Below are positions 3,164 through 56,092 of a DNA stretch of 64,000 bases, piece by piece (position 1 is the first letter of the stretch; each line of letters opens with the position of its first letter). The position numbers were made by a program, and so were the translations under genes. Source of the stretch: Nitrospirota bacterium (GTDB lineage Bacteria; JACPQY01). The stretch is from contig JACPAV010000025.1 in the NCBI GenBank assembly GCA_016180645.1, positions 1-64,000 of the forward strand, read 5' to 3'. The notes under the pieces were generated by a model, which saw nothing but the letters and a program-made list of their open reading frames with translations, ran no database searches and had not been told where the DNA came from.

Positions 3164-3360
3164 TAGCACGGATGCTCTTTGACAATTCGATAGCCATAGC
3201 TTCACCGCTTTGAGCGGTGAGGGCGGAATCACTTCCGCGAATCGAACGGGTCCCAGACGGAATCCGGAGCGGACACGGGTGCGTCCGTCCCTCCCCGGAC
3301 AGGCAAGGCTGGAAAAGGTCTTGCCCGGCCGGGGGAGGGCGGATGAAAGAGAGGAACGAT

Positions 3361-4542
3361 ATGCAGACACCCCTCAAACCACTGTTCGAACCGGAACCGA
3401 TGAACGACCAAGAATCCTCCATCGTGTCGTGGGACACCTGGGGAACCAAGGGATTCGAGATGATCAGCATCGAGGACACCCTCGAGGACATGCTCGATCT
3501 CTCCCCCGAGGCCCAGGAGGTCTTCGACACGCTGGGTTTCGATCTCCTGCTGGACGCCATCCACAAGATGCGCCATCCGGAGACCTCGAACGCGGAGCTC
3601 GACGCATGGATCGCAAGGGAGCGCAGGAAACTGGAGGAAATCCAGACGGCGCTGATTCCGGTCCTGCAGCGACTCCGGGACAAAGGATTCACGTTCGGTC
3701 CCGACTACTGGGAAAAGGCCGACGAGGCCGATCCCATTCCGAAGATTGCCGCGGAGGAGCTGCCCGAATTGTGGATCGAGCCACTGGCTCGCATCCTCAT
3801 CGGACAGGCCCCGCCGGAGGCCTTGGTGCTCCTGGCCGACTTCGCCAAACGGTGTACACCGAAAGGCATGCCGGCTCGGGAGCCCTTCAGAGACCTCTGG
3901 AGGCTGAGAGACACGGGTGAAGAGGTTGCCCCCTTCGAACGCCGGAGCGCCGGTCTTCGAGGACTACTCATGATGGACGAAATCCTGGAGTGGGCGATGG
4001 CCCACCGGGACCGCCTGACTGAGATCCTTGATCGCCGCGCGCCGAGCTACGAGGAGGTTCACCTCAAGGTGACGAGTTGGCTGCGCTCCCTGCAGCGGCA
4101 CCGGTTTGCGCTACCTGGGGAGAGGATGACGGCAAACGACATCTTCTTCTTTGCGCTTCCGGCGCTGCTCAGAGAGTCCTGCGACCGGCTCCTGAGAACC
4201 ATCTTCCGGCCCGATCTCAAGCCCGGCTCCGTGAAACTGAGCGAAACCGGCCAATCGCTGCTGCCGTGGATCGCCAATGCGGTCCCCGGGGCGCGCGGCG
4301 CGGCGCTCAGGCTCTTCGGATCCATCCCCCAGCCCTCGAAAGAGGACGAGTGGGGAACCTTCTTCGGGATTGCCGATCCGCGGAAATCCCCCGGTCTGGC
4401 GCGGATGTTGGGTATCCAAATCGGTACCGCATGGGCCGAGATGACGGGACAGCCCGTCGGGCTTGCCATCTGGAGATGCCGAAACGGATCCCCGCCGCGT
4501 GAAGACCAGGACACGGGAAGAGAGCGTCCACGGAGACAGTAG
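3361..4542 (+). CDS. Hypothetical protein, 393 aa
   Basis: I do not recognise this protein. It is soluble and acidic at the N-terminus, with no signal peptide or membrane span. Residues 25-60 are strongly acidic (ISIEDTLEDMLDLSPEAQEV). A likely helical, partly coiled-coil section follows (LDAWIARERRKLEEIQ). I place the start at the ATG at 3361, behind GAGAGGAACG; an in-frame ATG at 3343 is possible and would add six residues. It lies between the primase pair and the DUF3150-like gene, so it probably belongs to the same replication/maintenance block of the element. Codon use and the length of the frame support a real gene. Confidence 0.7.
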   Translation: MQTPLKPLFEPEPMNDQESSIVSWDTWGTKGFEMISIEDTLEDMLDLSPEAQEVFDTLGFDLLLDAIHKMRHPETSNAELDAWIARERRKLEEIQTALIPVLQRLRDKGFTFGPDYWEKADEADPIPKIAAEELPELWIEPLARILIGQAPPEALVLLADFAKRCTPKGMPAREPFRDLWRLRDTGEEVAPFERRSAGLRGLLMMDEILEWAMAHRDRLTEILDRRAPSYEEVHLKVTSWLRSLQRHRFALPGERMTANDIFFFALPALLRESCDRLLRTIFRPDLKPGSVKLSETGQSLLPWIANAVPGARGAALRLFGSIPQPSKEDEWGTFFGIADPRKSPGLARMLGIQIGTAWAEMTGQPVGLAIWRCRNGSPPREDQDTGRERPRRQ

Positions 4543-4892
4543 ATCCTGTCGCCCAACGCCTTCTTCCAAAACAGTAACCCGCCACGTCTCGTGAACGTGA
4601 CGCTGGGCGGGTAACCACGTCTTCGTGATTCCCGCCCTCCCCTCTCAAAGCTATGAAGCAGTCGTACAAACGCTCAGCCCTCGCACGCCCCGCGGAGAGG
4701 TCTGTGCTGAAGGAGCACCATGCGCGCCCCCTGCGCTCCGCTCCGGGGACGACGGAAGGAATCGTTATGGGGTCCCTGCGTCGAGAGAAGACTCCCCCTT
4801 GGGGAAGGAGATAGTCCCGGGCGCGCGCGGGAGACGTGTTATGATTTGCGAACACAACTGGACATGAAAGAGAGCATGAAAGGAAGGCAAGG
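4543..4892. other. Intergenic region with a hairpin and a family A repeat
   Basis: No gene seen. Just after the preceding stop, ACCCGCC and GGCGGGT (about 4577-4614) can pair and may act as a terminator or processing site. A family A repeat fills 4723-4783. A ribosome site AAGGAAGGCAAGG precedes the next gene. Confidence 0.5.
4723..4783 (+). repeat. Repeat family A, copy 3 (variant, intergenic)
   Basis: A variant of A with GGGGACGACGGAAGGAATC in the middle and TGGGGTCCCTGCGTCG at the end. The same variant occurs at 23315-23373. Confidence 0.85.
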
Positions 4893-7446: not shown

Positions 7447-7514
7447 TCATCCCACCACCTGAAACGGGCGCGCGAGCGCCCCGTTCCGGGTCGGTTTCAG
7501 GTGGTGGGATCATG
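7447..7514. repeat. Repeat family B, copy 3, ending at the radical SAM start codon
   Basis: Palindrome ATCCCACCACCTGAAACG ... TTTCAGGTGGTGGGATCATG. The ATG at 7512 is the start chosen for the next gene; AGGTGGTGGG acts as its ribosome site. Confidence 0.9.
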
Positions 7515-17856: not shown

Positions 17857-20800
17857 ATGGCAACCAAGAGATGCCCGAAGACAGAGGGGGGCAAAGGGCT
17901 TGGAAAGTTCTCCATAACGGGAATCCCATGCCTTCAGCCCATCCTTGGTATTGTAAGTTTGATGGTCGCGGGTTGCGGAGGCGGCCTTCCGGACGTGGTC
18001 GTGCCGCTCAGGCCCGAGCGGGCGGGGATGCTGAGTCGCGTGGAATGGAACGTCGTGGATTCGGAAGGGGAGAGGGCGGAGGTCGATATCGTTCGCCTGG
18101 AGGATCCCAAGTCAGAAAACCGCGCCCCCTCCGCTTCGCTCCAGGGACGACGAGATGAAGAATCATGGGATCCTCGCGTCGAGGAGCGGAGCGGGCTGGT
18201 TCTCGGTGATGCTCTCAACCGAAAAGGTACTTATCTTGTGATGCAAGCGGCCGGCGTGCCGGTGGCCATTGTTGCCGGTCATCCGCCGGTCATCGAGTGG
18301 CTCGACCCGGACCATGACCGGGTGGACAGTCTCACGGAGCTCCTGCTGCAGACGGATCCGACGCAGGTGGATGTCACGGCGGGGTCGGACGCGGTGAGGA
18401 GGGTCGAAAGGGAATCCTACGCTTTTGCGTCGGACCTCCCGGTGAAGGAGCGGGGGAAAAAGGAAAAGTGGGTGTACGGCCGCGAGGGGCGTATTTTGTT
18501 CGAGAGCGGTGAAAGCGCCCGGGCGGATCTCGCTCGCTGGTGGAAGGGGCCGGGGAAAGACAATACGTGCGCGGAGGCAGCACCCGGAGACGCTTGGGAA
18601 ATGCACGAGGTGGGCTGCGACGTTGGCTCGTTGAACATGAGCGACGGTTGGCACACGGTCTGGGCGGAAGACGTTCTGACGTTTCGGATCGGGCGGCCGG
18701 TGCCGGCCACGGTGGTCAAGACTCGCGAAGACGGCATGGATTTTCTGTGCCAGGGGGATGAAAAACTATTCGGCCCAAGCCTGTGCTACGAGCAGTGCTC
18801 GGTCGGGGCCATCGGATTTCGGTCGTGCGGGAGCGTCGACTACGTCTCGACGGGTCCGGGGATCGCCGCGGTGCGCGTGCGATCGGTGGAGGCGGGCGGA
18901 GCCATCGACCTGACGGGAGCCACGGTGCCGTACCGGAGCGTGGCGCGGGCGGTGGGACGCCAAGGCCGCGAAGAAATTCGGTTGTCGCCCGGGCGGGGCG
19001 ATCTCCTCAAATACTGTGCGGATGGAAAAGGGGGTTGCGAGCCGACGAAGCCGCACACGGAGATCTTGCGGCTCTCCTGCAAGGCATCCGGGTGCAAGTA
19101 TTTCGTCAACACGGTTCAGGAGCGACGGGAGAGACTGTCGGCGCCACGGCAGCAGAGCCTCGTGGTCATCGACGGCGATGCGCCGACGGCGCAGTACACC
19201 CCCGAGACGGGATGGTTGGGCTCCTCCGGGACGTATGAAGTCAAGGGCCATGATGCCAGTTCCCCCCTGATCGGTTTGTACTACTGTGCGGCCGGAGCGG
19301 GGGCGCCGCCTTGTGAAGGCGACCCAGCCGACTACGACCGGCTGATTGCAGCGGAGGGTACGGGGGGCCAAACCGTGCAGGATGGGTACGGCTTTACGTT
19401 TACGTTTACGGGGGCGCTACTCCAGGAGTTGGCGACGCAGTCTTGCGCGGGGCTTGGAGCGTGCACGATGCGGCTGGCCGGCGTGGTCATGGACAGCGCG
19501 GGGAACCCCAGCGTGAAGATCGAGGCGGTGGTGAAGCGGGACGTGAGCGTGCCGATCGTAACGGCCTACGCGCCGGAGTACACGACGGAGGCCGCGGCCA
19601 CGGTGAAGTTCAGCATGACCGATACGGGCTCGGGACCGGCGAAGGTACGGCACTGCATGGCCGCGCAGGGGAGTGATACGTGCGAGCCGGCGACGGAGAC
19701 CAACGTGGACGAAACCGGCTCGGCCGAGGTCACGGTGGACTCGCGAAGCAGCGTGGACGTCGTCACGGTGGTGTACGAGGGCCTGGACCAACTGGGCAAT
19801 GTTTCGACGCGGGGGAGCGTCGTCCTGAAATTTGACGGCTCTGGACCGATGGTACAGATGCCGAGCCCGGGCGTGTACGGCCCGGGGCCGAAGGCGGTGT
19901 CCGCGACGGATGCATCGGGCGCGGGACTGGATCGGGTGGTGGTGTGCGTGGTGACCGTGGACATGAATGCATGCCCTGAAAAAGGGTATGCGGTCCAGCC
20001 GTCAAGCGGGGTGGATCCGCTGGAATTTACGGTGGACGTGACATGCCAGGAGGGGGATCTGTGCGCACGGTGGATCCTGGCGAAGGCGTTCGACCGGGCG
20101 GGGAACGCGGGGGCCTGGGCGAAAACGAAACTGAGCATCGATCAGAGGGCGCCCGCGATCACGATTGAAGGGCCGGCGGGTCAGCTCCTGGCCTCGAAAG
20201 CGGAATTCAAAATCACATCGGCGGACGGAACCGGAGAGAGCGGCGTGGCGAAGGTCACGTTCTGCACGGGGGCGAATGGGGCGTGCGACGCGGCATCCGG
20301 CCAGAACGTGCCGGCGGGTGGCCGCGTCACGCTGGAGGGAGACAAAGACGTCTTCAGCTGGCGATGGCTCTGCGTGCGGAGTTCCGACCGGATCGGGAAC
20401 GCGGCGAGCCGCTGCGTTCGGGCGGGATTCGACCATGTGACGGGGGCGTGCGCGATCGAGAATGGAGGAGGACGGTGGATGCGGTGGACGAGCGACGTGC
20501 CGCTGTCGAGCTGCGTCGAGCCGGGCCAGGATGAGTTTCTGGGGGACTCGGGGAAGGATCTTGTGCGCGAACCCTTCGGGGCGCGCGTGGCCTACTGCAT
20601 TACGAATGAAGGTGGGACGTGCGTGCCAAATGGGTCAAAGACCGTTGCGGTTGACGCGGCATCGCGGAGGGCGGCGATGCCAATCGGGGAATTCGGCTGC
20701 GGAGCGGGGGAGGGGTGTGCGAAGGCGGTGTTTTTCCGCATGGAGGACAAATTCGGCAACGTGGGGAAGGTCGAGTCCGGTGCGGTTCGGATCGACCTCC

Positions 20801-23193
20801 AGGCGCCTGAACTGATGGCGCTCCTCAGCGGCACGACGCTGACCGTGAATGTGAGTGACGGACATTCGGGAGCGGCGCTCGTGCGGTATCACGCCTGGGT
20901 GTCCGGAGGCTTCAGACCGGAGGCGAACACGGAATGGGATTTCTACGTACCCTCGGAGGGGGGCGGAGGGGCTGGGGCGGCGCAGATGTACGAGGCGGGG
21001 AACTGGCTGAACCTGTCCGGAGTGGGAACGGTGACGGTCAATAGTCACGCGATCCTCTGTGGAAGGGTTGACCGGAGCGCGGGGAGCACCGACTGCACGG
21101 TAACCATCGAATACAAGGTGCGGGACGCGGCCGGGAACGAGTCGACGGGGGGTACTGGAAGCACGGGAAGCAAGGTCAAGGTGGGTCAGATCAGCGACGG
21201 GGGAGTGAAGGACGAAGGCGCGCCCGTGATTGTGGGAGGCAAGGTCTACGAGGGATTGTACGAGTCGTCCCCTCCGCTTCGCTCCACGGACGACGGGATG
21301 AAGAATCATTCGGTCCTTGCGTCGGCTGAGCACGACATCGAGGTATGGGCGGGCGGCGGGTTGCCGGTAAGCGTGAGATTCAAAGACGGGCTGGTGAACG
21401 CGAAGAATGAACCCACCGGGACGTCAGCCGTGGACTATGTGCGGTTCGATCTCTTCTGGGGTTTCGACGGAAGTCAGGCCTGCTCGGAGAGCTACCGCGT
21501 AAAGTGGGAGTGCAGTGGTAATTGGACGTGCGTGATGCCGAAGGATCCGAAGCCGGCGACGGAGCTCCTGGGAATTGCGTACATGAGACCGCTGTCCGGG
21601 GGCGAGCGGGCATGGACGGGAAGTCTGAACATCGACCTGGCGAAGATCATGGGTACGGACCAATACCGGGGGGACCAGGTGGATCCGGCGGTAAATTCGG
21701 CGGCCCAGGCGAAGCAAGCTCCGGGGCGCGTTCCGCGGCGTTGGTTTGTTCGGGCGAAGGCGGTGGACGTGTACGGCAATGTGTCGGCCTGCGCGGCCTC
21801 AAATGGGTTCTACCCCTACGAAGTCCGCGGCGAAGGGGGTGACGCGCATCTCAAATTCCTTCAGATGAGCGCAAACCTGGGCTCGGCTGAGAACGTGCTC
21901 TTTGGACGATTCAAATCATTCGGCGACGCCTACCGTTCGAAATCGGAAAGCGTGATTGCGCTCAAAGACTGGACGCCCCCCGCGGAACTGGGATGGAACA
22001 GCGGTTCGATAGCCACGACGCGGAGGACGGTGCGCGCGCTGGCGGCGAACGAGGACAAGGACGCCCGGTACTGGGTGAGCTCGGTGACGTACAACCAAGA
22101 TACTACAAACGGCCTGTACTTAACGCTGCAGCACTCGCTTTGGCTGGACAAAATTCGCAAAAGTGATGGAGGCCGGAGGACGTGCTTCGTGGGGAAGGCC
22201 CCATGGATGATCGTACCCAAGAATGCAGCGGTTCCGGATCCGCACGGCTGGAGTGCGGTACTTCCGAGTGGGAAGGTCTTGGTGTCTGGGGTTTTCTACA
22301 ATGCCGATTCAACGTATTCAGATGGCTACCACGCCGCGGCGGTCCGGGGCGTGTTGGATCCGGCGATGATGGAAAAGCAGCCGGCGCCGACGGAGGAGGA
22401 TCCGCAGAGGATGGTGGATTCGCCGCGTTGCGGCTCCTCGATCGATGAGGTTCTCCGGCGGGCGGAGAAGGCGAGAAACCCGAGCTGCACGGGTGCGTGC
22501 GAGCCGAGCTTCTATACGTTCATTTACTTCGTGCAATCGTCGGACAGGGGGCCTCTGTGGCCGTCCTATAGCGAGGGAGCATCCAGCTACGAAGGTCCCC
22601 AGGGAGATGGCTACGAGCGTACGGTGCTGACCGCTCCGAGCCCCTACGGCGATGGACACGTATTCTACGGGGCGCTGATCTACTCCGACTACTTGGAGAG
22701 CTCCGGGTATGTCCCGCGGATCGTGCTCGACTGGGAGGGCCGGGCGGAGAAGGCATACGGCGAGGGACAGTTTTCGGATGGGAACGTGCTCGAACTGGCC
22801 GGTATGAAGTGCCGAGACGCCGCCTTGGCGGCCGATCCTGATTTCGGTCTGATTGTGCGGAGTCCTTACGGGCTCACGAACTACCCGTGGTTTCGGCCGG
22901 TGTCGGCGAGAGTGTTTTCCTCCGCATCCTGCGGCATCCACCTCTTCTGCGCCAAACCGGAGGGCGGGGGCCAGCACATCTGGACGATGGATCCGCTCGT
23001 GAAGGAACAGCCGGGCACGCCCTACAAGGCGGTAGCCGCAAACAAGGGCGCGGTGTGGAAACGTGAGGACTACGCGTTCAGGGACGTGACGATGGACCAG
23101 ATGTGCAATCTTCACGTCCTGGACGATGGATCGGGATCCGCGTATCAGCCGTCGAACCTCCGATACCGGGTGGACCCAGCTAGGTGGTGGTAG
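17857..23193 (+). CDS. Giant lipoprotein with bacterial Ig-like repeats
   Basis: A 1778-aa exported protein. The ATG at 17857 follows GAGGGGGC; a hydrophobic signal ending LMVAGCGGG (about residue 37) looks like a lipobox. The body is a series of about 90-100 residue Ig-like/beta-sandwich repeats, each ending in a DxxGN motif (DSAGNPS, DQLGNVS, DRAGNAG, DRIGNAA, DKFGNVG, DAAGNES, DVYGNVS), with paired cysteines. A C-terminal section of about 450 residues has a different, propeller-like look. Family A repeats are read in frame at residues 89-108 (SASLQGRRDEESWDPRVE) and 1136-1156 (SPPLRSTDDGMKNHSVLAS). Likely a surface adhesin or envelope structure. It is the first of four consecutive exported proteins and resembles the product of 41560-45912. 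Confidence 0.8.
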   Translation: MATKRCPKTEGGKGLGKFSITGIPCLQPILGIVSLMVAGCGGGLPDVVVPLRPERAGMLSRVEWNVVDSEGERAEVDIVRLEDPKSENRAPSASLQGRRDEESWDPRVEERSGLVLGDALNRKGTYLVMQAAGVPVAIVAGHPPVIEWLDPDHDRVDSLTELLLQTDPTQVDVTAGSDAVRRVERESYAFASDLPVKERGKKEKWVYGREGRILFESGESARADLARWWKGPGKDNTCAEAAPGDAWEMHEVGCDVGSLNMSDGWHTVWAEDVLTFRIGRPVPATVVKTREDGMDFLCQGDEKLFGPSLCYEQCSVGAIGFRSCGSVDYVSTGPGIAAVRVRSVEAGGAIDLTGATVPYRSVARAVGRQGREEIRLSPGRGDLLKYCADGKGGCEPTKPHTEILRLSCKASGCKYFVNTVQERRERLSAPRQQSLVVIDGDAPTAQYTPETGWLGSSGTYEVKGHDASSPLIGLYYCAAGAGAPPCEGDPADYDRLIAAEGTGGQTVQDGYGFTFTFTGALLQELATQSCAGLGACTMRLAGVVMDSAGNPSVKIEAVVKRDVSVPIVTAYAPEYTTEAAATVKFSMTDTGSGPAKVRHCMAAQGSDTCEPATETNVDETGSAEVTVDSRSSVDVVTVVYEGLDQLGNVSTRGSVVLKFDGSGPMVQMPSPGVYGPGPKAVSATDASGAGLDRVVVCVVTVDMNACPEKGYAVQPSSGVDPLEFTVDVTCQEGDLCARWILAKAFDRAGNAGAWAKTKLSIDQRAPAITIEGPAGQLLASKAEFKITSADGTGESGVAKVTFCTGANGACDAASGQNVPAGGRVTLEGDKDVFSWRWLCVRSSDRIGNAASRCVRAGFDHVTGACAIENGGGRWMRWTSDVPLSSCVEPGQDEFLGDSGKDLVREPFGARVAYCITNEGGTCVPNGSKTVAVDAASRRAAMPIGEFGCGAGEGCAKAVFFRMEDKFGNVGKVESGAVRIDLQAPELMALLSGTTLTVNVSDGHSGAALVRYHAWVSGGFRPEANTEWDFYVPSEGGGGAGAAQMYEAGNWLNLSGVGTVTVNSHAILCGRVDRSAGSTDCTVTIEYKVRDAAGNESTGGTGSTGSKVKVGQISDGGVKDEGAPVIVGGKVYEGLYESSPPLRSTDDGMKNHSVLASAEHDIEVWAGGGLPVSVRFKDGLVNAKNEPTGTSAVDYVRFDLFWGFDGSQACSESYRVKWECSGNWTCVMPKDPKPATELLGIAYMRPLSGGERAWTGSLNIDLAKIMGTDQYRGDQVDPAVNSAAQAKQAPGRVPRRWFVRAKAVDVYGNVSACAASNGFYPYEVRGEGGDAHLKFLQMSANLGSAENVLFGRFKSFGDAYRSKSESVIALKDWTPPAELGWNSGSIATTRRTVRALAANEDKDARYWVSSVTYNQDTTNGLYLTLQHSLWLDKIRKSDGGRRTCFVGKAPWMIVPKNAAVPDPHGWSAVLPSGKVLVSGVFYNADSTYSDGYHAAAVRGVLDPAMMEKQPAPTEEDPQRMVDSPRCGSSIDEVLRRAEKARNPSCTGACEPSFYTFIYFVQSSDRGPLWPSYSEGASSYEGPQGDGYERTVLTAPSPYGDGHVFYGALIYSDYLESSGYVPRIVLDWEGRAEKAYGEGQFSDGNVLELAGMKCRDAALAADPDFGLIVRSPYGLTNYPWFRPVSARVFSSASCGIHLFCAKPEGGGQHIWTMDPLVKEQPGTPYKAVAANKGAVWKREDYAFRDVTMDQMCNLHVLDDGSGSAYQPSNLRYRVDPARWW
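18123..18181 (+). repeat. Repeat family A, copy 6 (in frame inside the giant lipoprotein)
   Basis: Consensus copy read in the second forward frame, giving SASLQGRRDEESWDPRVE. Confidence 0.93.
21266..21324 (+). repeat. Repeat family A, copy 7 (in frame inside the giant lipoprotein)
   Basis: Consensus copy read in the first forward frame, giving SPPLRSTDDGMKNHSVLAS, between two Ig-like units. Confidence 0.93.
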
Positions 23194-27246: not shown

Positions 27247-27783
27247 ATGAGAAGCACGAGGAAATGGCCGGTACGAATGGGAACGGCGGCGCTCTTGGGA
27301 TTGATCCTGGGCGGCTGCGCAACGACGAAGGGCGCGGGTCGGAAGGCGGACGACACGACGCTCTCCTGCCGGCAGGTGGGGGAAACCCTCCGCTGCTCGG
27401 GGCTTGAGGGGGGCTATGTGGAGTTTGCACCGGAACCTTTGGCCGTGGATCTGTCGGGCATGAAAAAGAAACGCGAGGCCTACGACGCCGGGTACCAGGC
27501 GGGCATGGAGAGCATGCACAAGATCCGGCAGGGCTACGAGGAGGGAGTGCGGTACGTGTTCAAGCGGCCGGTCTGGCAGAAGGTGAAGCTGCCGGCGGAG
27601 GTGAAGGACGGGGTGTTTCATCCGGAGCGGGAGGTCTACGTGCTCGTTGAACCGGGCCGCTACGAGCTCAAGGGGGGAGCGGTGTCCCCTCCGCTTCGCT
27701 CCACGGACGACGAGATGAAGAATCAGAGGGTCCTTGCGCCGGATGCGCCCTCTCCTGCGAGCGGAGCGGAAGGGCACGAATAG
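27247..27783 (+). CDS. Small lipoprotein with a repeat-derived C-terminus
   Basis: A 178-aa protein with a textbook ribosome site (AAAGGAGG, 7 nt before ATG 27247) and a clear lipobox, LILGGC (Cys about 22). The mature part has a Cys pair (LSCRQVGETLRCSG) and a helical, charged middle (KKKREAYDAGYQAGMESMHK). Residues 145-165 are a family A repeat in the first frame (SPPLRSTDDEMKNQRVLAP), and only 13 residues follow, so the C-terminus appears to have been rewritten by the insertion. Last gene of the exported-protein run from 17.9 kb. Function unknown; an envelope role next to the barrel protein is likely. Confidence 0.75.
   Translation: MRSTRKWPVRMGTAALLGLILGGCATTKGAGRKADDTTLSCRQVGETLRCSGLEGGYVEFAPEPLAVDLSGMKKKREAYDAGYQAGMESMHKIRQGYEEGVRYVFKRPVWQKVKLPAEVKDGVFHPEREVYVLVEPGRYELKGGAVSPPLRSTDDEMKNQRVLAPDAPSPASGAEGHE
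27683..27740 (+). repeat. Repeat family A, copy 10 (in frame at a C-terminus)
   Basis: Read as SPPLRSTDDEMKNQRVLAP close to the end of the small lipoprotein. Confidence 0.92.
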
Positions 27784-27915
27784 AGAAAGGGGAGACACGG
27801 TGAAATTGCCGACAATGAGATGAGTGAAAGAGGGGTCAGGAAAAAAGAGAAGTGAATTCAGATGTGCATGCATCACCGAGGAACGGACGGAATCCTCGCG
27901 TCAGCGTGAAGGTCA

Positions 27916-27973
27916 TTTCCCCGCTCGATGGTCTCTTGCGGCCGACAAGGGAACGATCGAGCGGGGAAAGGAG
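27916..27973 (+). promoter_or_regulatory. 14-bp hairpin leader next to the SD of SLOG gene 1
   Basis: TTTCCCCGCTCGAT (27916-27929) pairs perfectly with ATCGAGCGGGGAAA (27956-27969), and the Shine-Dalgarno GGAG (27970-27973) follows without a gap. The 26-nt loop contains GGTCTCTTGCGGCCG. The leader of the second SLOG gene (28937-28993) has the same layout and related sequence, so both probably control translation in the same way. Confidence 0.6.
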
Positions 27974-27983
27974 CTAGGCAACT

Positions 27984-28763
27984 ATGACACAGAATGGACC
28001 GACGAATCAGAAACCCCCTGAGGGGGGATTGGATCAGTCGTTCTATGTTGATAGTGTGAGCACACCCTCCATCCTACCAAGCGAGGCGGCGAAGATAACC
28101 CGCCTTGCGTTCCGGGAGCGGCTGTCTCTGGATTCGAGCGCAAAAGTGCTTGGGTTCTTGGGGCTGGCCAATGCGGAGGACATGGAGCTGGTGGGAGACC
28201 TCGACGCAATGGTCGGAGCGGTGAAACACCGCATGAGGACGCACCTACGGCGAAGGAGGCCGGATCTCGTGGTCACATGTTTGGCCGCTGGAGTCGACTT
28301 CTTGATGCTTGAGGTGTGTGAGGAAGAGGCTATCCCGTTTGTCGTGGTAGCGTTTCTTGACCGGGTGGACGTGGACCGGGACGGCAGCCGCGAAAGACTG
28401 GCGCGGCGACATGGTCTCATGTCCAAGGCAAGGCAGGTGGTATTCGTGGCGGACCCGCTGGATGCGGAAGGCGATGAGAAGGCGACCCGCTGGGTCGCGA
28501 CTCACGCGGACCGCGTCTACGCGATTTCCGGCGAAGTGACGGAGGAGTCGATGGCGCGGCTGGAAACAGCTCTCCGCGCCGGTTCTCCTGTCCGTGTCGA
28601 GCCGATTGAGTTCTGCGAGACTGTCTACGCCAAATGGGTGGACGACAGGTTTTGCGATCTCATGTTGGCGATCCAGCCCGGGGCCGCGGATGCGCACCAA
28701 ACCACGACGGAACAGACAAGCTGCAGTGCGACCGGTGGCGAGCCCCCGGCCGTAACGCAGTAG
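27984..28763 (+). CDS. SLOG-fold nucleotide-sensing protein, copy 1
   Basis: A 259-aa protein with a Rossmann-like SLOG (YpsA/DprA/LOG-type) core. VLGFLGLANAEDMEL (about 53) matches the first strand and loop. LVVTCLAAGVDFLMLEVCEE (about 92-111) matches the conserved glycine-containing helix, and IPFVVVAFLDRVD and VVFVADPLD continue the alternating strand-helix pattern. SLOG proteins bind or process nucleotides and NAD-derived ligands and are frequent in conflict systems. The C-terminal 25 residues look disordered. It heads an operon with a second SLOG gene and a NADAR-domain gene. Start ATG 27984 behind GGAG. The ligand is unknown, and the catalytic PGGxGT motif of the LOG branch is absent. 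Confidence 0.68.
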   Translation: MTQNGPTNQKPPEGGLDQSFYVDSVSTPSILPSEAAKITRLAFRERLSLDSSAKVLGFLGLANAEDMELVGDLDAMVGAVKHRMRTHLRRRRPDLVVTCLAAGVDFLMLEVCEEEAIPFVVVAFLDRVDVDRDGSRERLARRHGLMSKARQVVFVADPLDAEGDEKATRWVATHADRVYAISGEVTEESMARLETALRAGSPVRVEPIEFCETVYAKWVDDRFCDLMLAIQPGAADAHQTTTEQTSCSATGGEPPAVTQ

Positions 28764-28936
28764 CAGTCATGGGACGGCGATATCCCGCTCCGTCCGTCCC
28801 TCTGGGATGCATGCGGAAAACAATGAATAGGATGGAACGAACAAGAGCTCGCGGGGAGGCGCGAGAAGAGAAGGGTTCAACGGAAAGTCTATTTCGCATC
28901 TCTGTGGAACGGACCCGGAGAATAAGGGGGCGATCC

Positions 28937-28993
28937 TTTCCCGCCCGACCGGTCCCTGCCGAAGGGCGGGGGTCGATGGGGCGGGGAAAGGAG
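28937..28993 (+). promoter_or_regulatory. Paired-hairpin leader next to the SD of SLOG gene 2
   Basis: TTTCCCGCCC (28937-28946) can pair with GGGCGGGGAAA just before the GGAG ribosome site (one-base bulge), or with GGGCGGG at 28964-28970. The two stems exclude each other, as in an attenuator. The sequence lines up with 27916-27973 (TTTCCC...CGA...GGTC...CTTGC/CCTGC...GATnG...GCGGGGAAAGGAG). Confidence 0.55.
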
Positions 28994-28999
28994 AGAACC

Positions 29000-29677
29000 A
29001 TGAAGCAACCTGATGTCGCAGACGCAAAAGGCAGTCAGGGCAGTAGTCATGGACAGATCGTCATGGCGTCGTTTGAGTCGGCCGCGGTGACGAAGCGGGA
29101 TATCCTCCAATGGGCCGGAAAGGGCTCGGAGGGGATCATCCTTGCGGTTACCGGTCACCGGCCGGACAAGATCGGTGGCTACGACGAAACGCACCCCACA
29201 AGAAGGGCCGTAAGGACGGGGATCCGGAAGGTGCTCGAAGGCATTTCGCCGACGGTTGCGCTGAGCGGAATGGCGCTCGGCGTCGACCAGGATTTTGCCG
29301 AAGAGTGCATTTCCTTGGGGATCCCGTTCGTGGCGGTCGTTCCGTTTCGCGGTCAGGAAAACGTCTGGCGCGGCTACGCGCGCGAGCGGTGGCGGAACCT
29401 GCTGAGGCAGGCCGTCGCCGTCGTGAACGTGAGCCCGCCGCCCTACGCCGGCTGGAAGCTCCAGCGGCGGAACGAATGGATGGTGGACCGATGCGATGCG
29501 CTCCTTGCCGTGTACGACGGGTCTCCCGGCGGCACGCGCAACTGCGTTGAATACGCCGAAAAGAGGCGGTTCAGTGCGGAAAGGCTGCACATCCTCCGAC
29601 CGGGGGACTGTGTGGAATCGCAGAGTGTTCCGGCGGTCATGCCGGCGGAATACCAAACGGCTTGCGCACCATGCTGA
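29000..29677 (+). CDS. SLOG-fold protein, copy 2 (YpsA/DUF1273-like)
   Basis: A 225-aa protein. The N-terminal 40 residues are Ser/Gln-rich, then the core reads ILAVTGHRPDKIGGY (about 47), VALSGMALGVDQDFAEECIS (about 85-104), IPFVAVVPF and, near the end, NEWMVDRCDALLAVYDGSPG with GTRNCVEYAE. These are the landmarks of the YspA/YpsA (DUF1273) branch of SLOG proteins, where such residues line a nucleotide site. It starts at ATG 29000 behind AAAGGAGAG in the structured leader; the longer open frame upstream has no similarity. Its stop overlaps the start of the NADAR gene by 7 nt (ATGCTGA), so the two are probably translationally coupled. Confidence 0.82.
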   Translation: MKQPDVADAKGSQGSSHGQIVMASFESAAVTKRDILQWAGKGSEGIILAVTGHRPDKIGGYDETHPTRRAVRTGIRKVLEGISPTVALSGMALGVDQDFAEECISLGIPFVAVVPFRGQENVWRGYARERWRNLLRQAVAVVNVSPPPYAGWKLQRRNEWMVDRCDALLAVYDGSPGGTRNCVEYAEKRRFSAERLHILRPGDCVESQSVPAVMPAEYQTACAPC

Positions 29678-30462
29678 AGGTCTACACCAGTCGTGTAGGG
29701 TACACGGGCCCCTTGCCGCTCGACGTCACGATCAAGTCGGCGGGAGAGATGGGGCGCGCGTTTGCACCGACGAGTTGGGACATGGTCCTGGGTGCAAAGA
29801 GCGGCCGCATTCCTCACGATCAGTACCGAACTTGGTACGAGGACGTCCTCGACAAGAGCCGGAAGGCGCAGCCGTGGCACTGGGAGAATCTCCTCGGGCT
29901 GCCCCGGGTGGTGCTCATGTGTTACTGCACCTCCCCCTTGAATTGCCACCGACGATATCTGAGCGAATACCTCATGAAAACGTTCGGGGCATCGTATCAA
30001 GGTGAGGTGCCGGTAAACGGCAGCGATCTTCCGGAAAGGTTTCCATTCAGCAACTTCCAGCCTGTGCCGGTGAGCCACGAGGGGATTTTGTATCCCAGCG
30101 TGGAGCACTACTACCAGGCGATGAAGACGCTGGACCTGGCGGAGCGGAGACGCATCGCCCAGCTGCCCACGCCGGGAATGGCGAAGACGGCGGGGAAGAA
30201 GCTCTTCCACCGTCGGGATTGGGAACGGGTCAAGATCGAGGTCATGCGCGATGGCCTCAAGAAGAAGTTCTCGCCGGGGTCGGCCTATCTGGCGGCGCTC
30301 CTGAGAACAGGCAGTGATGAGGTGGTCGAATCGAACCGGTGGCACGATGTGTTCTGGGGACGGTGCATCTGTCTCCAGCACAACGGTGCCGGGGAGAACC
30401 AGCTTGGTCAGCTGCTCATGGAGCTCCGCACGGAGGCGCGATCGGCGGGGATGAACGCGTGA
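29671..30462 (+). CDS. DUF488-like domain fused to a NADAR (YbiA-like) domain
   Basis: A 263-aa two-domain protein. Residues 1-105 (VYTSRVGYTGPLPLDVTIKS, then MCYCTSPLNCHRRYLSEYL) match the DUF488-like proteins, with the CYC...CHR residues of that family. Residues 125-260 are a NADAR domain: FPFSNFQPVPVSHEGILYPS, VEHYYQAMKTLD, MRDGLKKKFS and NRWHDVFWGRC plus GENQLGQLLM. NADAR proteins act on ADP-ribose-linked or NAD-derived compounds; some remove ADP-ribose from guanine bases. With two SLOG genes upstream, a NAD/ADP-ribose sensing or repair role in defence or counter-defence is likely. Start ATG 29671 overlaps the previous stop; a TTG at 29662 is possible. Confidence 0.85.
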   Translation: MLKVYTSRVGYTGPLPLDVTIKSAGEMGRAFAPTSWDMVLGAKSGRIPHDQYRTWYEDVLDKSRKAQPWHWENLLGLPRVVLMCYCTSPLNCHRRYLSEYLMKTFGASYQGEVPVNGSDLPERFPFSNFQPVPVSHEGILYPSVEHYYQAMKTLDLAERRRIAQLPTPGMAKTAGKKLFHRRDWERVKIEVMRDGLKKKFSPGSAYLAALLRTGSDEVVESNRWHDVFWGRCICLQHNGAGENQLGQLLMELRTEARSAGMNA

Positions 30463-30540
30463 AATGGAAACGGCCCAAAGCCCGCCCGGGCCGTTCCATA
30501 GGGATGCGAAGCGAGAGGTGGACATGGGGAGAACGGGGCG

Positions 30541-31023: not shown

Positions 31024-32751
31024 TCAGAAAGGTGCGGCTGCGCACCCGAAGCCGACCGATTCTGTCTTCTCGCGTGAGGTGGGGTCCTCCATCTGGGCCG
31101 GGGAGGACAGCGCTTGCCTCGGCGGAGCCAGCGGAAACTTCACCGGGTCGTACTCGACAATCTGGTCGCTCACGTCGTACCCTAGTACCCCCAAGTACCC
31201 CCCGAAGCAGTAGATCTTCCCGTTGGCCGGCCCCACACAGGACAAATCGCTCCGCGCCGACGGCAGCTTGGCCGATTTCGTTGCAACGGTATCACCGGCC
31301 GGGTCGTACTCGACAATCTGGTCGAAGCGGCTGCCGCCGATCCCCCCCAAGCAGTAGATCTTCCCGTTGGCCGGCCCCGCACAGGACAAATCGCTCCGCG
31401 CCGATGGCAGCTTGGCCGATTTCGTTGCAACGGTATCACTGGCCGGGTTGTACTCAACAATCTGGTCGCTCACGTCCTGCCGTAGCACCCCCAAGGACCC
31501 CCCGAAGCAGTAGATCTTCCCGTTGGCCGGCCCCACACAGGACAAATCGCTCCGCGCCGACGGCAGCTTGGCCGATTTCGTTACAACGGTATCACCGGCC
31601 GGATCGTATTCGACGATCTCTTCATTGCCTACCCCCCCGAAGCAGTAGATCTTCCCGTTGGCCGGCCCCGCACAGGACAAATTGCTCCGCGCCGACGGCA
31701 GCCTGGCCGATTTCGTTACAACGGTATCGCTGGCCGGGTTGTACTCGACGATCTCGTAGACGCCCATGTGCGAAGTGCCCTTCAGCTCGGTCCCCCCGAA
31801 GCAGTAGATCTTCCCGTTGGCCGGCCCCGCACAGGACAAATCACCCCGCGCCGACGGCAGCTTGGCCGATTTGGTTGCCACGGTACGCCTGGCCGGGTCG
31901 TACTCGACGATCTGGTCTTCATATTCGAAGTAGCCAGCACCGCCGATCCCCCGCCCCCCGAAGCAATAGATCTTCCCATTGGCCGAGCCCGCACAGGACA
32001 AGTCCTCCCACCCGGCCGGTAGCTTGGCAACAACGGGCAGCGCGCAAGCGTCGTCGATCTCTCCGTCGCAATCGTTGTCCTTGCCGTCACAACTCTCGGC
32101 TGAAGGAGTGCCCGGCGTGGCATTGCATTCTGTGTCGGTCCCATCAGTCTTACACTTAAGAGTTCCGGCTTTCGCGCATTCCCCTACACCCACTGTACAG
32201 GAGGGGCCAATGTCGAACCCTTCGTCGACCTTTCCGTCGCAGTCGTTATCCACGTCGTCACATACCTCAGGATTACCGGGAAATGCCTTTCCTTTCGAAT
32301 CGTCACAGTCTCCCTGCTTGAAGCTGGAGTTTTGTCCACCACAGATATCCGTACTTCGTGGATTGCCACTCCCAAACCCATCTCCATCGCTGTCAACAAA
32401 ACCAACGCAGATCTCGATACGTTCAGACCGCTTTGGCCCATTGAAAGCGTGCAAGCGATACCTGCCCCCTTCACCACTTCCGTCCCGCCAACGGGTTGTA
32501 TCTCTTGGAAGACTTGCTATAGGGGAGAAGTTATTGCCTTGCCTCTCGGTCGATTTCTCGACAACAAAACCATCTTCAAAGTTTGAATCATCCTTCCATG
32601 TCAAAATGACGCTTCCTTGTTCAAAAGATGCGCCAAGGTCACTGGGTGGATCGGGCGTTGGATCGGCACCGAACATTTCAGCCAGCCCGCATGAGGGGAG
32701 TGCAAGTACAATGAGGTACAGAAAGGTTGTCCTGATCCCGCCTCTCAACAC
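31024..32751 (-). CDS. Lipoprotein with FN3-like domain, MopE motifs and Kelch repeats
   Basis: A 575-aa exported protein. I start it at GTG 32751, just after the end of the upstream gene, which gives TTFLYLIVLALPSCG as a lipoprotein signal; the open frame extends further but would overlap that gene. After the signal come a GADPTPDPPSDLG linker, an FN3-like domain (LTWKDDSNFEDGFVVEKSTE), the Ca-binding-like FVDSDGDGFG, and two MopE motifs (PEVCDDVDNDCDGKVDEG and CDGKDNDCDGEIDDAC). Six about 50-residue Kelch-type units follow, each with LSCAGPANGKIYCFGG and QIVEYDPA...VATKSAKLPSAR. The near-identity of the units suggests recent duplication. Its N-terminal half is a paralog of the lipoprotein at 34019-35689. 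Likely surface-exposed binding protein. Confidence 0.82.
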   Translation of the reverse strand: MLRGGIRTTFLYLIVLALPSCGLAEMFGADPTPDPPSDLGASFEQGSVILTWKDDSNFEDGFVVEKSTERQGNNFSPIASLPRDTTRWRDGSGEGGRYRLHAFNGPKRSERIEICVGFVDSDGDGFGSGNPRSTDICGGQNSSFKQGDCDDSKGKAFPGNPEVCDDVDNDCDGKVDEGFDIGPSCTVGVGECAKAGTLKCKTDGTDTECNATPGTPSAESCDGKDNDCDGEIDDACALPVVAKLPAGWEDLSCAGSANGKIYCFGGRGIGGAGYFEYEDQIVEYDPARRTVATKSAKLPSARGDLSCAGPANGKIYCFGGTELKGTSHMGVYEIVEYNPASDTVVTKSARLPSARSNLSCAGPANGKIYCFGGVGNEEIVEYDPAGDTVVTKSAKLPSARSDLSCVGPANGKIYCFGGSLGVLRQDVSDQIVEYNPASDTVATKSAKLPSARSDLSCAGPANGKIYCLGGIGGSRFDQIVEYDPAGDTVATKSAKLPSARSDLSCVGPANGKIYCFGGYLGVLGYDVSDQIVEYDPVKFPLAPPRQALSSPAQMEDPTSREKTESVGFGCAAAPF

Positions 32752-32785
32752 TCGCCTGCGGGAAGCATCGCGGATTCCAGGCGCA

Positions 32786-33544
32786 CTATTCCGGAACTGC
32801 CGCTCTGCCCCCAATGACCGTGCGTTCAATGTAGTTGTCCACTCCCATCGTCTTGCGAAGCTGGTAGTTGTACAGATCAGCATTCTCCTGCGCAAAGAAC
32901 GCTGGCGTCACCCTTTTCTTTCGGAGCTTGTATCCCATGGGAAACAAGATCCCGCTCGTACCCCCAAACGCCGCAGCTATTGGGAAAGCAAATATCACTC
33001 CAGCCACCTGGGCATCTTCTGACTTGCCTTTCTTCATCAGGTAGTCGCCCAGTAGTTGTGATCCCGTTCCGAGAACAGCCATCCACCATCCCGCTGTGAT
33101 AAGTTTCTCCGCTAGTTCCTCTCTTCCCTTTGCGATCGCCACAAGTTCCATCTGCTGGCTCTTTTCCCAGAACTGGGATTCCTTCAAGGGAACAATCCCC
33201 TCAAAAGGCGCCCATGTCTTGATTTGTGAGATGTTTGTGCTTTCAAACGAGCCAAACTTTCCGAGATTCGTTGAACTCTGCTTCACTTCGAGCTCCGTTG
33301 CACTTTCAATAGAGATCTTCCGTTCAATGTATGAGCGGTACTGCGTGACAACCTCATCGTCTTCCAACACGGGTGGGGACGCGGATTGTTCAACCGATTT
33401 CAGAGTCTCTTTTTTCAGGTGCTTTTGAATAATGTCGTCTTGTCCCCAAGCAGGGAAACCTGTAAAGGCCAAGACAACGAACAGCGCAACTGATGCTGCC
33501 CTCGTCGTCAGCCCCACCCTACGCGACCTACGTGTTTGTCTCAT
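32786..33544 (-). CDS. Exported protein of unknown function with two hydrophobic segments
   Basis: A 252-aa protein with a Sec-type signal peptide (ASVALFVVLAFTGFPAWGQ, cleavage likely after AWG). The mature part has a charged N-terminal half (YIERKISIESATELEVKQSS) and two hydrophobic stretches, LITAGWWMAVLGTGSQLLGD and VAGVIFAFPIAAAFGGTSG, which could be membrane spans. No family is recognised. It ends 34 nt before the start I chose for the Kelch lipoprotein on the same strand, so the two are probably an operon. Third positions look less GC-rich than in the tra-like genes, in line with separate acquisition of this block. Confidence 0.72.
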   Translation of the reverse strand: MRQTRRSRRVGLTTRAASVALFVVLAFTGFPAWGQDDIIQKHLKKETLKSVEQSASPPVLEDDEVVTQYRSYIERKISIESATELEVKQSSTNLGKFGSFESTNISQIKTWAPFEGIVPLKESQFWEKSQQMELVAIAKGREELAEKLITAGWWMAVLGTGSQLLGDYLMKKGKSEDAQVAGVIFAFPIAAAFGGTSGILFPMGYKLRKKRVTPAFFAQENADLYNYQLRKTMGVDNYIERTVIGGRAAVPE

Positions 33545-36230: not shown

Positions 36231-36621
36231 GACGGATGTGGCGATTGTAGCCTGGGCTGATACCTTGTCAAATGCCTCTTAACAGCCAGCCCGAGCATTT
36301 CAGGGTGAATCTGGCCATTTGGGTTGGGGGGCGTAATCCGCATAGAGTCGGAATTCGAGGGCCTCCCGGCCTGTAGGACCCGTTGACGGCCTTTCCGCGC
36401 TCCACCGCTCCTCGACCCATCACCCAGCGTGTGCCTCGGCTCTCCGAGCGTGCATGATCCCACCACCTGCAATCCGCCTGCGGCGGACTCGGAAAAGAGG
36501 CGCTTCTGCGCCTGTTGCAGGTGGTGGGATGATGAGGAACCCCTACCATCGGTTCCTCGTCGAAGGGGATGACCTCGCGGTGAGGTGAGCGGAAGGAATT
36601 CAGCAAGGCATCTTGTCTGCC
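36231..36621. other. Intergenic region with repeat B and the right-hand direct repeat
   Basis: Contains repeat B (36454-36532) and the right copy of the diverged direct repeat from 36536. No gene supported before 36622. Confidence 0.55.
36454..36532. repeat. Repeat family B, copy 5 (intergenic)
   Basis: ATGATCCCACCACCTGCAAT ... GTTGCAGGTGGTGGGATGA, a full palindrome with a second internal stem (CGCCTGCGGCGGACT / AGGCGC). Confidence 0.92.
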
Positions 36622-37655: not shown

Positions 37656-37958
37656 ATGAACAAGAACAGCAAGGACGACAAAACAAAGAGGGCCCGGATG
37701 CCTTTTCCATTCCCGATGCTGGGCGGAAGCCAGTCGGGCGTATCGGATCTCGAGGAGCTTTACGTCGACGCCCTCGCGGAGGGCGGCATGTGCGAAGCAC
37801 CGGAGCAGGATCGAACGGTGGAAATGCTGTCGATCGGCGGAACGACGGTGGTCCGGCGGGTGGGTCGGCGGTCGAGAGTCATCGTCCCCTCCGCTCCGCT
37901 CCACGGACGACGAGATGAAGAATCATGGGAACCTTACATCGAGGTCGATCTGGCGTGA
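37656..37958 (+). CDS. Small protein at the head of the T4SS operon, with repeat-derived C-terminus
   Basis: A 100-aa protein of unknown function. The start ATG 37656 lies 9 nt after AGAGAGG. The N-terminus is lysine-rich (KNSKDDKTKRARMPFPFP), the middle acidic (LEELYVDALAEGGMCEAPEQ). Residues 77-95 are a family A repeat read in the second forward frame (VPSAPLHGRRDEESWEP), and the gene ends six codons later. Its stop overlaps the GTG of the traE-like gene (GTGA), showing coupling. In F-type operons TraL or pilin normally precede TraE, but this protein has no membrane span and is not a convincing match to either. Confidence 0.6.
   Translation: MNKNSKDDKTKRARMPFPFPMLGGSQSGVSDLEELYVDALAEGGMCEAPEQDRTVEMLSIGGTTVVRRVGRRSRVIVPSAPLHGRRDEESWEPYIEVDLA
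37884..37940 (+). repeat. Repeat family A, copy 11 (in frame at a C-terminus)
   Basis: Consensus copy read in the second forward frame, close to the stop of the 100-aa protein. Confidence 0.93.
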
Positions 37959-41559: not shown

Positions 41560-44500
41560 ATGAAGAATCTGAAGAAACGGAAGGGCGCTTGGGCAGGCTC
41601 ACGACCTCATAAGGCGCTGAGTCAATCGAAGGGAGCGCAACCGAGCGGCGCCAGGACGGCACAGCCGTCCGGCCCTGCCTGCCGCGACGCCTCCGCGTCC
41701 TGCGGCGCAGGCAGGGACTCGCTGGACGCGACGAAGCGGGGCGTTCCCGTCTTGAGTTTCCTCCTGGCCGCGGCGGCGCTCTGCGGGACGGCGGCGTGCG
41801 CCCCGCCGGAGCCGGCGACGTACATCATCTATATCGAGGCGGAGAAGTCGCTCACGTCGGCGGTGGAGAGATTTGCGCCGGTGGCACGGATCGACCGGGG
41901 GGAGAGCGTGCTGGACGACGGCGTACCGGTGGGCTTCCAGATCGGCGAGGACGGCGCGTCGTATGTGTCGCTGGGATTCGAAGGTCGGCTTGGGAATGCG
42001 GAGGACCCGGTCACTCTGACGCTCCATGACCGGAGAGTGGATCTCATCGGCGTGAAGCTCATGCGGGCCAGGAACAGTGAGGGGGTCCTGACGCGGGACG
42101 GCGAGGCGACGGCGTTTCCCGATTCGGACGAGGACGGCGTGGAAAATCTCATCGAGGCGTATCTGGGGACGGATCCCTTCTCGAAAGGGCAAAGGCCGCC
42201 CGAGGACCAGGCGCAAAAGATTGCGGAGGATGTCTTTCCGGAACTGGCTTCTCAGCGAAAGGCGCGTAGCACCGGGAATACGGGAGGGGCTGGGGCCGGC
42301 GACCCCGGTGCGGGGGTCGATACGAAAATCACGACAAAACCTTCGAAGCCCGTGTCATCGGATGCCGTAACAATTCGGTTCATCGCGGTGGGGAAGGCGG
42401 AGGGGGCGAGGTTGGAATGTTCGGTGGACGACGGTGCGTTTGGGGAGTGTGTCTCGCCGCTGACGCTTACGGGCCTCGCGGAAGGGCCGCACCGGTTGCG
42501 GGTCAGGGCGGTCGCCGGCGACGGCGAGGTGGATGCGACGCCGGCGGAGGCCGTCGTCGTCGTGGACCGCACGCCACCCGCGACGAAAATCACGGGGACC
42601 CCATCGGGCGTGAAGAACGAGGGGAAAGTGTCTCTCCAGTTTGAGTCGACGGAGGCGGGGAGCGCATTCCTGTGTTCCGTGGATCAGAGCCCGGTGCAGG
42701 CGTGTTCGCCCGGTCAGGGAGTTTCAGTCGGATCGGACGGCCGCCACACCATTCGGGTCTTCGCCATGGATGCCGCGGGAAACCGGGATCCTGTAGGAGC
42801 GGAGGCGGTTGTGGATGTGGATCTGACGCCGCCGACGGTAAAGTGGCTTGCCGCGCCGGCCGCCGTGACGAACCGCACGGAGGTAACGGTGACGGCTGCC
42901 GCGGAGGACCGCGCGGGAGTCGCTGTGATCGAGTGCGCGGTGCGCGGTGCTGCCGAGAAGGATCAGTCGCCCCCTCCGCTGCGCTCCACGGACGACGAGA
43001 TGAAGAATCATGGGGTCTTTACGTCGCCCCGGTGGGAGGCCTGCGGGTCGGGCATGATGGTCCGGGGACTGGCGGAGGGCGCCTTCGTGGCCATGACCCG
43101 GGCGAAGGATCGGGCGGGAAACGTGAGTGCCGTTCTCGAAACAGCTTTCATCGTGGACCTCACGGCGCCGGCCGTTCGCATCAAGGAGGGGCCGGCCGAG
43201 GTCAGCGCGATGAAGCAGGTGTCGTTCGTCCTGGAAGGCTCGGAGGATGTAGAGACCTTCCGCTGCGGAATGGACGAAGAGTGGTCGGCCTGCGGGGGTA
43301 CCTGGAGCGTGCCGAGCGTGCCGGAGGGGCGCCACTTGGCGCAGGCCGAGGGCGTCGACAAGGCGGGTAACGTGGGCCGAAGCGAGGCGTACGCCTTTAC
43401 GATCGATCGATCGCCGCCGGAGATCCGGGTCGTGTCCGGGCCGGTGGATGGGACCAACCAGTCGTCGGTTGTCTTTCGGATGGGGATTACAGATGCGCTT
43501 TCGGGTGGGGCAAGGCTCGAGTGTTCCGCGGACGGCGGGGCGTTCAGCGATTGCCTGGAAAAGGGCGTGACGTTTTCAAGCCTGACGACCGGAGCGCACG
43601 TGCTCGCCGTGAGGGCGGCGGATGGAGCGGGGAATGCGGCGGCAAGCAAATTTACGTTTGTTGTGGACCGGACGGCGCCGACGGTGACGGCCTCCGTGGC
43701 GGCCGGCTGGCTCAAGTCGCCGGGGGCGGTGATGTTCTCGGCGGCCGACGACAGCGGCGTCGCCCCGGCGGTCGACTACTGTTTCGCTCTGGGGGCAGGG
43801 TCCTGTGTGCCGTCGGTTCGCGCGGTCGATGGAGTGGGAGAGATAAGCTGCGAGGCCGGGGCGATCTGCGAGGGAAACGTGCATTTCACGGCGGTGGACC
43901 GGGCGGGGAACCGCTCGGAGGTTGTGCGCGTAAGCGTCAAGGTGGATGCGCAGGGGCCTATGATCGGGGGGGATGTCGCGTTCACGATGATGGGGACGCG
44001 AGGCGCGAGTCTGAGCGCGCGATTCGATGACGCGGGTGTAGGCGAAGTGAAAGACTGTCTTCTTGAGTTTGCGGACTCCGCGGGCGTGACGAGTCAAACG
44101 AAAGCGGCGGTGGGTGGAGTGTGTTCGGTCTCGCGCGCATGCGAAAGAAAAGGACCACTCGTCTTGGGTGTCGTGGCGCTCGATGCGGTAGGGAACGGAT
44201 CGGCCCTGGTGGAAAGGACGATGACCTGCGATTCGGCGCCGCCCGCGACAAGTATTACGTTTGGGCCGGACGTGAAGGAGTCCCCCGGGAGGTTCATCGA
44301 CGGCGGGCCCGGGTTCACGACGAGACGCTACCCGTTCGCGGTGACGGACGGGGACGGTGTGGGGCCACGGGAGGTGCGCTACTGGGTGACGGGCATGAGC
44401 GGGGAGGCGAGCTGCTTGTGGACGAGCCCGGGAGGCTGCGGTTTCGAGGTTGCGTGTTTGGGTTCGGTTTGCCTCGGAACGGTCCGGTTCTACTCGGTCG

Positions 44501-54392: not shown

Positions 54393-54456
54393 ATGATCCC
54401 ACCACCTGTCACCAAGTCGAAGACTTGCCTTTCGGCAGTGACAGGTGGTGGGATGA
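54393..54456. repeat. Repeat family B, copy 6 (intergenic, short)
   Basis: ATGATCCCACCACCTGTCAC ... GTGACAGGTGGTGGGATGA. The shortest complete copy; its spacer contains the same AAGTCGAAGACTTGCC block as copy 4. Confidence 0.93.
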
Positions 54457-54650
54457 TTGACAAACCACCTTTCGTTGGTACGATGCAGTGACGGCATTGG
54501 GGGTGGAGTGATGACGATGAACACGCCGACAGAAGAGTCTGGGCGATGCGGATCCCGGATGACGGGACGCGCGTCCGAAGTGAGCCAAATCGGCCATGGG
54601 CGGAGTCGTTGGCGGAGGTTGGAGTGTCCAACTTCCGAGTAGAGATGCAT

Positions 54651-56011: not shown

Positions 56012-56092
56012 CCCACCACCTCCCACAGGCCGCAGAGCGGCCTCGGATCTAGCGGCTCGCTTGGCGAGCCGGTGGGAGGTGGTGGGATCATA
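56007..56092. repeat. Repeat family B, copy 7, supplying a minus-strand start codon
   Basis: Full palindrome ATCATCCCACCACCTCCCAC ... GGGAGGTGGTGGGATCAT. The left end gives the ATG (56011) of the nucleoside hydrolase-like gene; the right end overlaps the 3' end of the SEC-C gene. Confidence 0.92.

Follow-up and report, generated by a model that had tools for sequence, protein, structure and literature searches.

Two neighbouring genes in a 64,000-nucleotide stretch of Nitrospirota DNA (the window) are each preceded by a hairpin at the ribosome site, which raises the question of what these leaders do to the mRNA that carries them. The preliminary description of the locus considered them to be related RNA elements and regarded an RNA sensor for a nucleotide-type ligand as an attractive possibility.

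Genes of the two SLOG units

Both genes had been assigned to the SLOG superfamily. For gene 2 (29000–29677, plus strand, 225 aa) this is borne out by a match to PF06908 (E 4.5e-13), and the encoded protein is of the YpsA type, which is common in phages. Gene 1 (27984–28763, plus strand, 259 aa) has no Pfam match, yet hhalign relates it to the family of gene 2 with an E-value of 1.5e-5. Moreover, its AlphaFold model, which is of medium confidence (mean pLDDT 64.6), finds B. subtilis YpsA (2nx2) as the best Foldseek match (E 2.1e-5). Judged from profile alignment and predicted fold, gene 1 thus encodes a divergent SLOG protein; no close relatives of it were found in the phage, plasmid, viral or genome collections searched. 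The start of gene 3 (29671–30462, plus strand) overlaps the stop of gene 2, and its product combines a DUF488/DUF4326-like N-terminus with a NADAR domain (PF08719, E 1.1e-24; PF04343, 0.0011). Derivatives of NAD/ADP-ribose are the known or predicted targets of SLOG and NADAR proteins (PMC9503650). A further SLOG paralogue, located on contig C20 of the same genome, lacks a leader of this kind.

Structure of the leader hairpins

The leader hairpin of unit 1 (h1, 27910–27975, plus strand) is built around the perfect 14-bp stem reported previously, in which TTTCCCCGCTCGAT (27916–27929) pairs with ATCGAGCGGGGAAA (27956–27969). The sequence GGAG (27970–27973) follows directly 3′ of this core, and an imperfect extension of the stem reaches across the Shine-Dalgarno (SD) sequence. 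In the hairpin of unit 2 (h2, 28930–28995, plus strand) the bases AAAGGA of the SD are located within the stem. The folding z-scores are −6.3 for h1 and −4.7 for h2, and none of 200 shuffled sequences folds as well. Perfect stems of at least 14 bp with loops of up to 45 nt occur six times in the window, compared with a mean of 0.03 in Markov controls.

Both hairpins can be aligned without gaps over 66 nt with 39 identical positions, and they share a single pairing register (i+j=67). Within this register 11 pairs are unchanged, five differ on one side and two on both sides, the 18 pairs counted being those formed in both sequences, so that the structure was picked to fit both. This covariation comprises two sequences, which belong to the only two homologous units, none having been found in relatives. 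The local similarity between the leaders exceeds that of 500 out of 500 shuffles, even if the SD arm is left out, and no conserved junction or bulge is seen. The two hairpins are real, non-random and homologous, in agreement with the common origin proposed earlier, and the leader hairpin common to the two neighbouring SLOG units is ancient. Part of the original argument for homology was a conserved 13-mer, GCGGGGAAAGGAG. It is present in both leaders, but its right-hand 7–8 bases are the usual extended SD of this genome (of 13 plus-strand occurrences of AAAGGAG, about 8 are followed by an ATG), and the match is therefore weaker evidence of homology than it looks.

Ribosome sites within the hairpins

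In the predicted folds of both leaders the extended SD AAAGGAG lies inside a stable helix, as in hairpins that control translation by occluding the ribosome site. The SD of gene 1 (27967–27973, plus strand) is partly paired, its pairing being confined to the imperfect extension of the h1 stem, with a predicted opening cost of 5.8 kcal/mol, whereas the SD of gene 2 (28987–28993, plus strand) is paired in h2 at a predicted cost of 9.6 kcal/mol. The anatomy of the leaders hence supports the suggested role at the ribosome site. Competing stems for the left arm of the second leader, which had also been described, do exist. However, the best fold with a fully open SD arm is 31.1 kcal/mol worse than the locked one in leader 1 and 23.6 kcal/mol worse in leader 2, and in neither leader did any competing fold come closer than 20 kcal/mol to the locked structure. 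The competing stems of leader 2 thus do not represent a balanced switch. A sigma-70-like promoter was looked for and not found.

A duplicated unit bracketed by inverted boxes

Each hairpin is part of a larger arrangement, which consists of a 25–26-nt box, the hairpin, the SLOG gene (followed by the NADAR gene in unit 2), a short 3′ UTR and an inverted copy of the box. In unit 1, the 5′ box GCATGCATCACCGAGGAACGGACGGA (27866–27891, plus strand) is complementary at 23 of 26 positions to the 3′ box (28789–28814, minus strand), which follows the gene 1 stop at a distance of 25 nt; none of the three differences is a G-U wobble on the plus strand. The motif of this 5′ box is almost absent elsewhere in the genome. 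In unit 2, the 5′ box TTCGCATCTCTGTGGAACGGACCCGG (28893–28918, plus strand) is matched by an inverted copy 23 nt after the NADAR stop (30486–30510, minus strand), and here both differences are G-U wobbles, in addition to one bulge. The ends of the boxes were chosen by matching. In either unit the score of the box pair is reached by none of 300 shuffles, while a cross-unit comparison, unit 1 5′ side against unit 2 3′ side, yields noise.

The box sequences differ between the units and match within each unit. Accordingly, the predicted duplexes within the units (−41.7 kcal/mol in unit 1 and −46.8 kcal/mol in unit 2) are more stable than those across units (−27.9 and −25.4 kcal/mol). Folds of the whole transcripts, which assume that both boxes of a unit are located on one mRNA, pair the boxes with mean probabilities of 0.92 (unit 1) and 0.94 (unit 2) and retain the leader hairpins. 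Hairpins, boxes, the homology with its boundaries and the matching within units are properties of the sequence, and the folds are computed.

Beyond the boxes the homology between the units drops to noise, since the similarity is matched by 212 of 400 shuffles upstream and by 98 of 400 downstream. In the 3′ UTRs, by comparison, none of 400 shuffles reaches the observed value. As the homology holds in the 3′ UTR and ends at the boxes, the duplicated object appears to be a unit with defined ends. Sequence comparison hence supports a common origin of the whole unit, consisting of 5′ box, hairpin, SLOG gene, 3′ UTR and 3′ box, by duplication.

Proposed function of the units

The arrangement may best be understood as a pair of cis-acting locks on translation, each combining a hairpin over the SD with a helix that closes the 5′ UTR onto the 3′ UTR. 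A probability of about 0.48, that is slightly below even, is assigned to this reading. The leader hairpin would draw the SD into its stem and thereby shut the translation start of each SLOG mRNA, whereas the box upstream of the hairpin would pair with its inverted partner after the last stop codon and give the mRNA the form of a panhandle. Transcripts covering the full unit, for instance those arising by readthrough from neighbouring genes, would be poorly translated for as long as the structure stays closed and uncut. RNase III, partial transcription or decay, and antisense RNA are conceivable routes of release. RNA rather than DNA would be the active form, translation would be lowered, and as an outcome a mobile element could by default hold its proteins acting on NAD/ADP-ribose at low levels. 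In support of a lock on translation, the pairing register has been kept through seven changed pairs although the two SLOG proteins are only about 25% identical.

Each of the two devices has precedents. In phage T4, hairpins at the ribosome-binding site (RBS) keep readthrough transcripts of e and I-TevI silent, and the hairpins of e, soc, 49 and I-TevI resemble those described here, since they hold the SD immediately ahead of the start codon (PMC3014915). In contrast to T4, no late promoter is known inside the hairpins of the SLOG units, which possess a second, long-range helix. The 3′ UTR of icaR from Staphylococcus aureus pairs with the 5′ UTR (PMC3868564). Complementary 5′ and 3′ UTRs are found in both SLOG units, provided that each forms a single mRNA. 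However, the icaR motif pairs with the SD itself, while in both SLOG units the 5′ boxes lie upstream of the hairpins, so that the 3′ box pairs 80–90 nt upstream of the start and the SD is held by the local hairpin. In ISPpu9, the long 5′ UTR of the transposase mRNA likely folds over its own ribosome site and complementary sequences are present on both sides of the gene, as in the SLOG units (PMC8450116). The partners in ISPpu9 are separate small RNAs, in contrast to the SLOG boxes, which are located on one strand of one unit that contains no transposase.

If confirmed, two known devices, a hairpin at the ribosome site and pairing between 5′ and 3′ UTR, would be joined in one duplicated unit, which could provide a mobile element with a way to keep NAD/ADP-ribose-acting genes quiet. 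In place of a speculative sensor of nucleotides, the analysis proposes a lock on SLOG/NADAR cargo that is defined by its sequence and open to testing.

Alternative explanations

The sharp boundaries of the units are also what would be expected of mobile cassettes. Mobile insertion cassettes reportedly carry a passenger gene between inverted repeats and have no transposase. MIC231 is an example cited in PMC2266710. The main rival of a translation lock is therefore that the units are old, transposase-less cassettes, in which the boxes represent terminal inverted repeats and the hairpin insulates the gene against translation from outside transcripts. Unit homology ending exactly at inverted terminal boxes agrees well with such an origin, as do the location in a defence-rich, probably conjugative element and the RBS-masking hairpins known on transposase mRNAs (PMC8450116). 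The likeness to MIC231 is, however, limited to a gene enclosed by inverted repeats: the flanks differ and show no target-site duplication, and genome searches with the boxes and the hairpin revealed neither another copy nor a partner insertion sequence. Moreover, the boxes are unit-specific and have no end sequence in common. The cassette origin accounts for the sharp ends and leaves these absences unexplained; it is considered rather unlikely, while still being the strongest competitor.

Alternatively, hairpins and boxes could be functionless leftovers of a tandem duplication, with the shared SD and a high GC content mimicking conservation. The units are indeed adjacent paralogues, and 7–8 of the 13 identical bases belong to the common SD. 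Neutral DNA would, however, be expected to lose both the hairpin register and the matching of boxes within each unit by the time the proteins have diverged to the observed extent, and both have been kept, which makes this explanation a distinctly weaker one.

Perfect palindromes may be DNA sites, and inverted repeats around a gene may be inversion sites. Hairpin arms and boxes, being real inverted repeats, could accordingly serve as operator or recombination sites whose RNA folds are incidental. Against this, a spacing of 26 bp between the hairpin arms is large for a dimer site, three differences in 26 positions make the box copies poor candidates for a recombination crossover, and the plus-strand RNA folds better than the minus strand (−40.9 versus −33.2 and −45.5 versus −39.0). 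A role as DNA sites is thus improbable.

Search for homologues and for a riboswitch

A covariance model of h1 and h2 detected only these two copies in the 4.7-Mb genome, no real match in the only family-level relative of this genome and nothing convincing in 290 other genomes. Of the weak matches, three (G001, G099 and G103) were rejected as palindromes of G/C runs or chance, and another one (L216) because it is located inside a coding frame. The limitation to two hairpin copies also disposes of a dispersed palindromic repeat that would occur at unrelated genes, a possibility raised in the preliminary description. The same description had proposed a covariance search across SLOG/NADAR loci with the leaders as seed and had named the absence of covarying homologues beforehand as the refuting outcome; upstream of about 180 such loci no convincing covarying homologue was found. 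The conserved aptamer upstream of related genes across genomes that characterizes metabolite riboswitches is thus absent from this set. Neither hairpin matches Rfam at either of the two thresholds applied. The NAD+-I (nadA) riboswitch resembles the SLOG leaders in a stem that includes the ribosome site and in its NAD-related theme, and it is distinguished by ACANCCCC bulges in tandem stem-loops (PMC7297122); these bulges as well as tandem aptamers are absent from both leaders. Although the leader includes the ribosome site and the SLOG/NADAR proteins are linked to NAD/ADP-ribose derivatives (PMC9503650), sensing of NAD, ADP-ribose or a similar nucleotide is therefore highly improbable, given the lack of an Rfam match, of the NAD+-I bulge, of homologues, of a conserved junction or bulge and of an alternative fold within 20 kcal/mol.

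RBS hairpins at first appeared to be common before SLOG homologues (19% versus 2.8% and 15% versus 4%), an excess that vanished after removal of near-duplicates. In the dereplicated sets no enrichment is seen, with 0 of 26 viral and 4 of 44 genomic homologues as compared with 9 of 304 and 17 of 340 in the background, and several of the Clostridial cases resemble operator dyads. None of the SLOG homologues displays bracketing clearly above shuffles. An isolated look-alike, unrelated in sequence, precedes a SLOG homologue from Blastocatellia (L033:3877–3951), where a hairpin with 32-nt arms ends at the start codon and holds the SD in its stem.

Another gene of the window with the same anatomy

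Within the window, a third gene shares the anatomy of both SLOG units and is unrelated to them in sequence. This gene (3217–4542), the start of which is at 3343 or 3361, belongs to no assigned family. It is bracketed by unique inverted repeats of 34–35 nt, one at 3199–3232 on the plus strand and the other at 4625–4659 on the minus strand, 82 nt beyond the stop codon (4542). The predicted duplex between them amounts to −49.1 kcal/mol, with a mean pairing probability of 0.88. In between, a hairpin (3284–3345, plus strand) carries GGGGGAGGG in its 3′ arm and reaches a putative ATG at position 3343. The whole leader folds with −62.6 kcal/mol, and the z-score of the hairpin is −3.6 over the last 73 nt of the leader and −2.3 in a uniform scan.

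As a background, 380 kb taken from other contigs of this genome yielded 298 genes, only four of which are bracketed. The bracketing repeats are hairpin-like and recurrent within the background in every case, and an RBS hairpin with a z-score below −3 precedes none of the four genes. Because no background gene shows the combination at this threshold and dereplicated SLOG homologues have no excess of RBS hairpins, bracketing together with a hairpin seems to be a trait of this element rather than of the SLOG family. Tentatively, several genes of the element, namely the two SLOG units and one unrelated gene, might produce self-closing mRNAs, each with unit-specific covarying boxes and an RBS hairpin. 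This extension is held to be unlikely, somewhat less so than the cassette origin; if true, it would represent a general plan for locking the translation of cargo genes, which has not been described as such before.

The carrying element and other repeats

The window encodes proteins with a TrbI match and weak TraK matches, a Toprim protein, DUF3150, a type III restriction-modification pair and an AbiE-like pair, and is thus probably part of a defence-rich, conjugative element. The presence of a different palindromic repeat, GTAGGGGAGCATCTTCAGATGCTCCC, on other contigs of the genome (L228 and L235) points to the window as an element of its own.

Several other repeats were observed in the window. 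A dispersed hairpin family, ATCCCACCACCTG...CAGGTGGTGGGAT, occurs at 843–918, 2790–2869, 7449–7510, 36453–36534, 54393–54457 and 55999–56099. At two places, 917 (Toprim gene) and 56011 (minus strand), ribosome site and start codon would both be supplied by an arm of this hairpin. A second dispersed repeat of about 67 nt, CCCCTCCGCTTCGCTCCACGGACGACGAGATGAAGAATCATGGGG, is found at 401–445, 18123–18173, 21266–21309, 27684–27725, 37883–37933, 42968–43014 and other positions, mostly in one orientation and partly within reading frames. Tandem repeats of about 150 nt (31143–32028) are located in a minus-strand gene (frame 31024–32895) with kelch-like CAGPANGKIYCFGG repeats.

Finally, a cluster of at least 26 tRNA genes, every one of them encoded by the minus strand, occupies about 5.3 kb (62.4–64.0 kb of the window; L245:12471–17783, corresponding to 62.5–67.8 kb of contig C25). 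This array at the contig end, beside conjugation and defence genes, is possibly carried by a mobile element.
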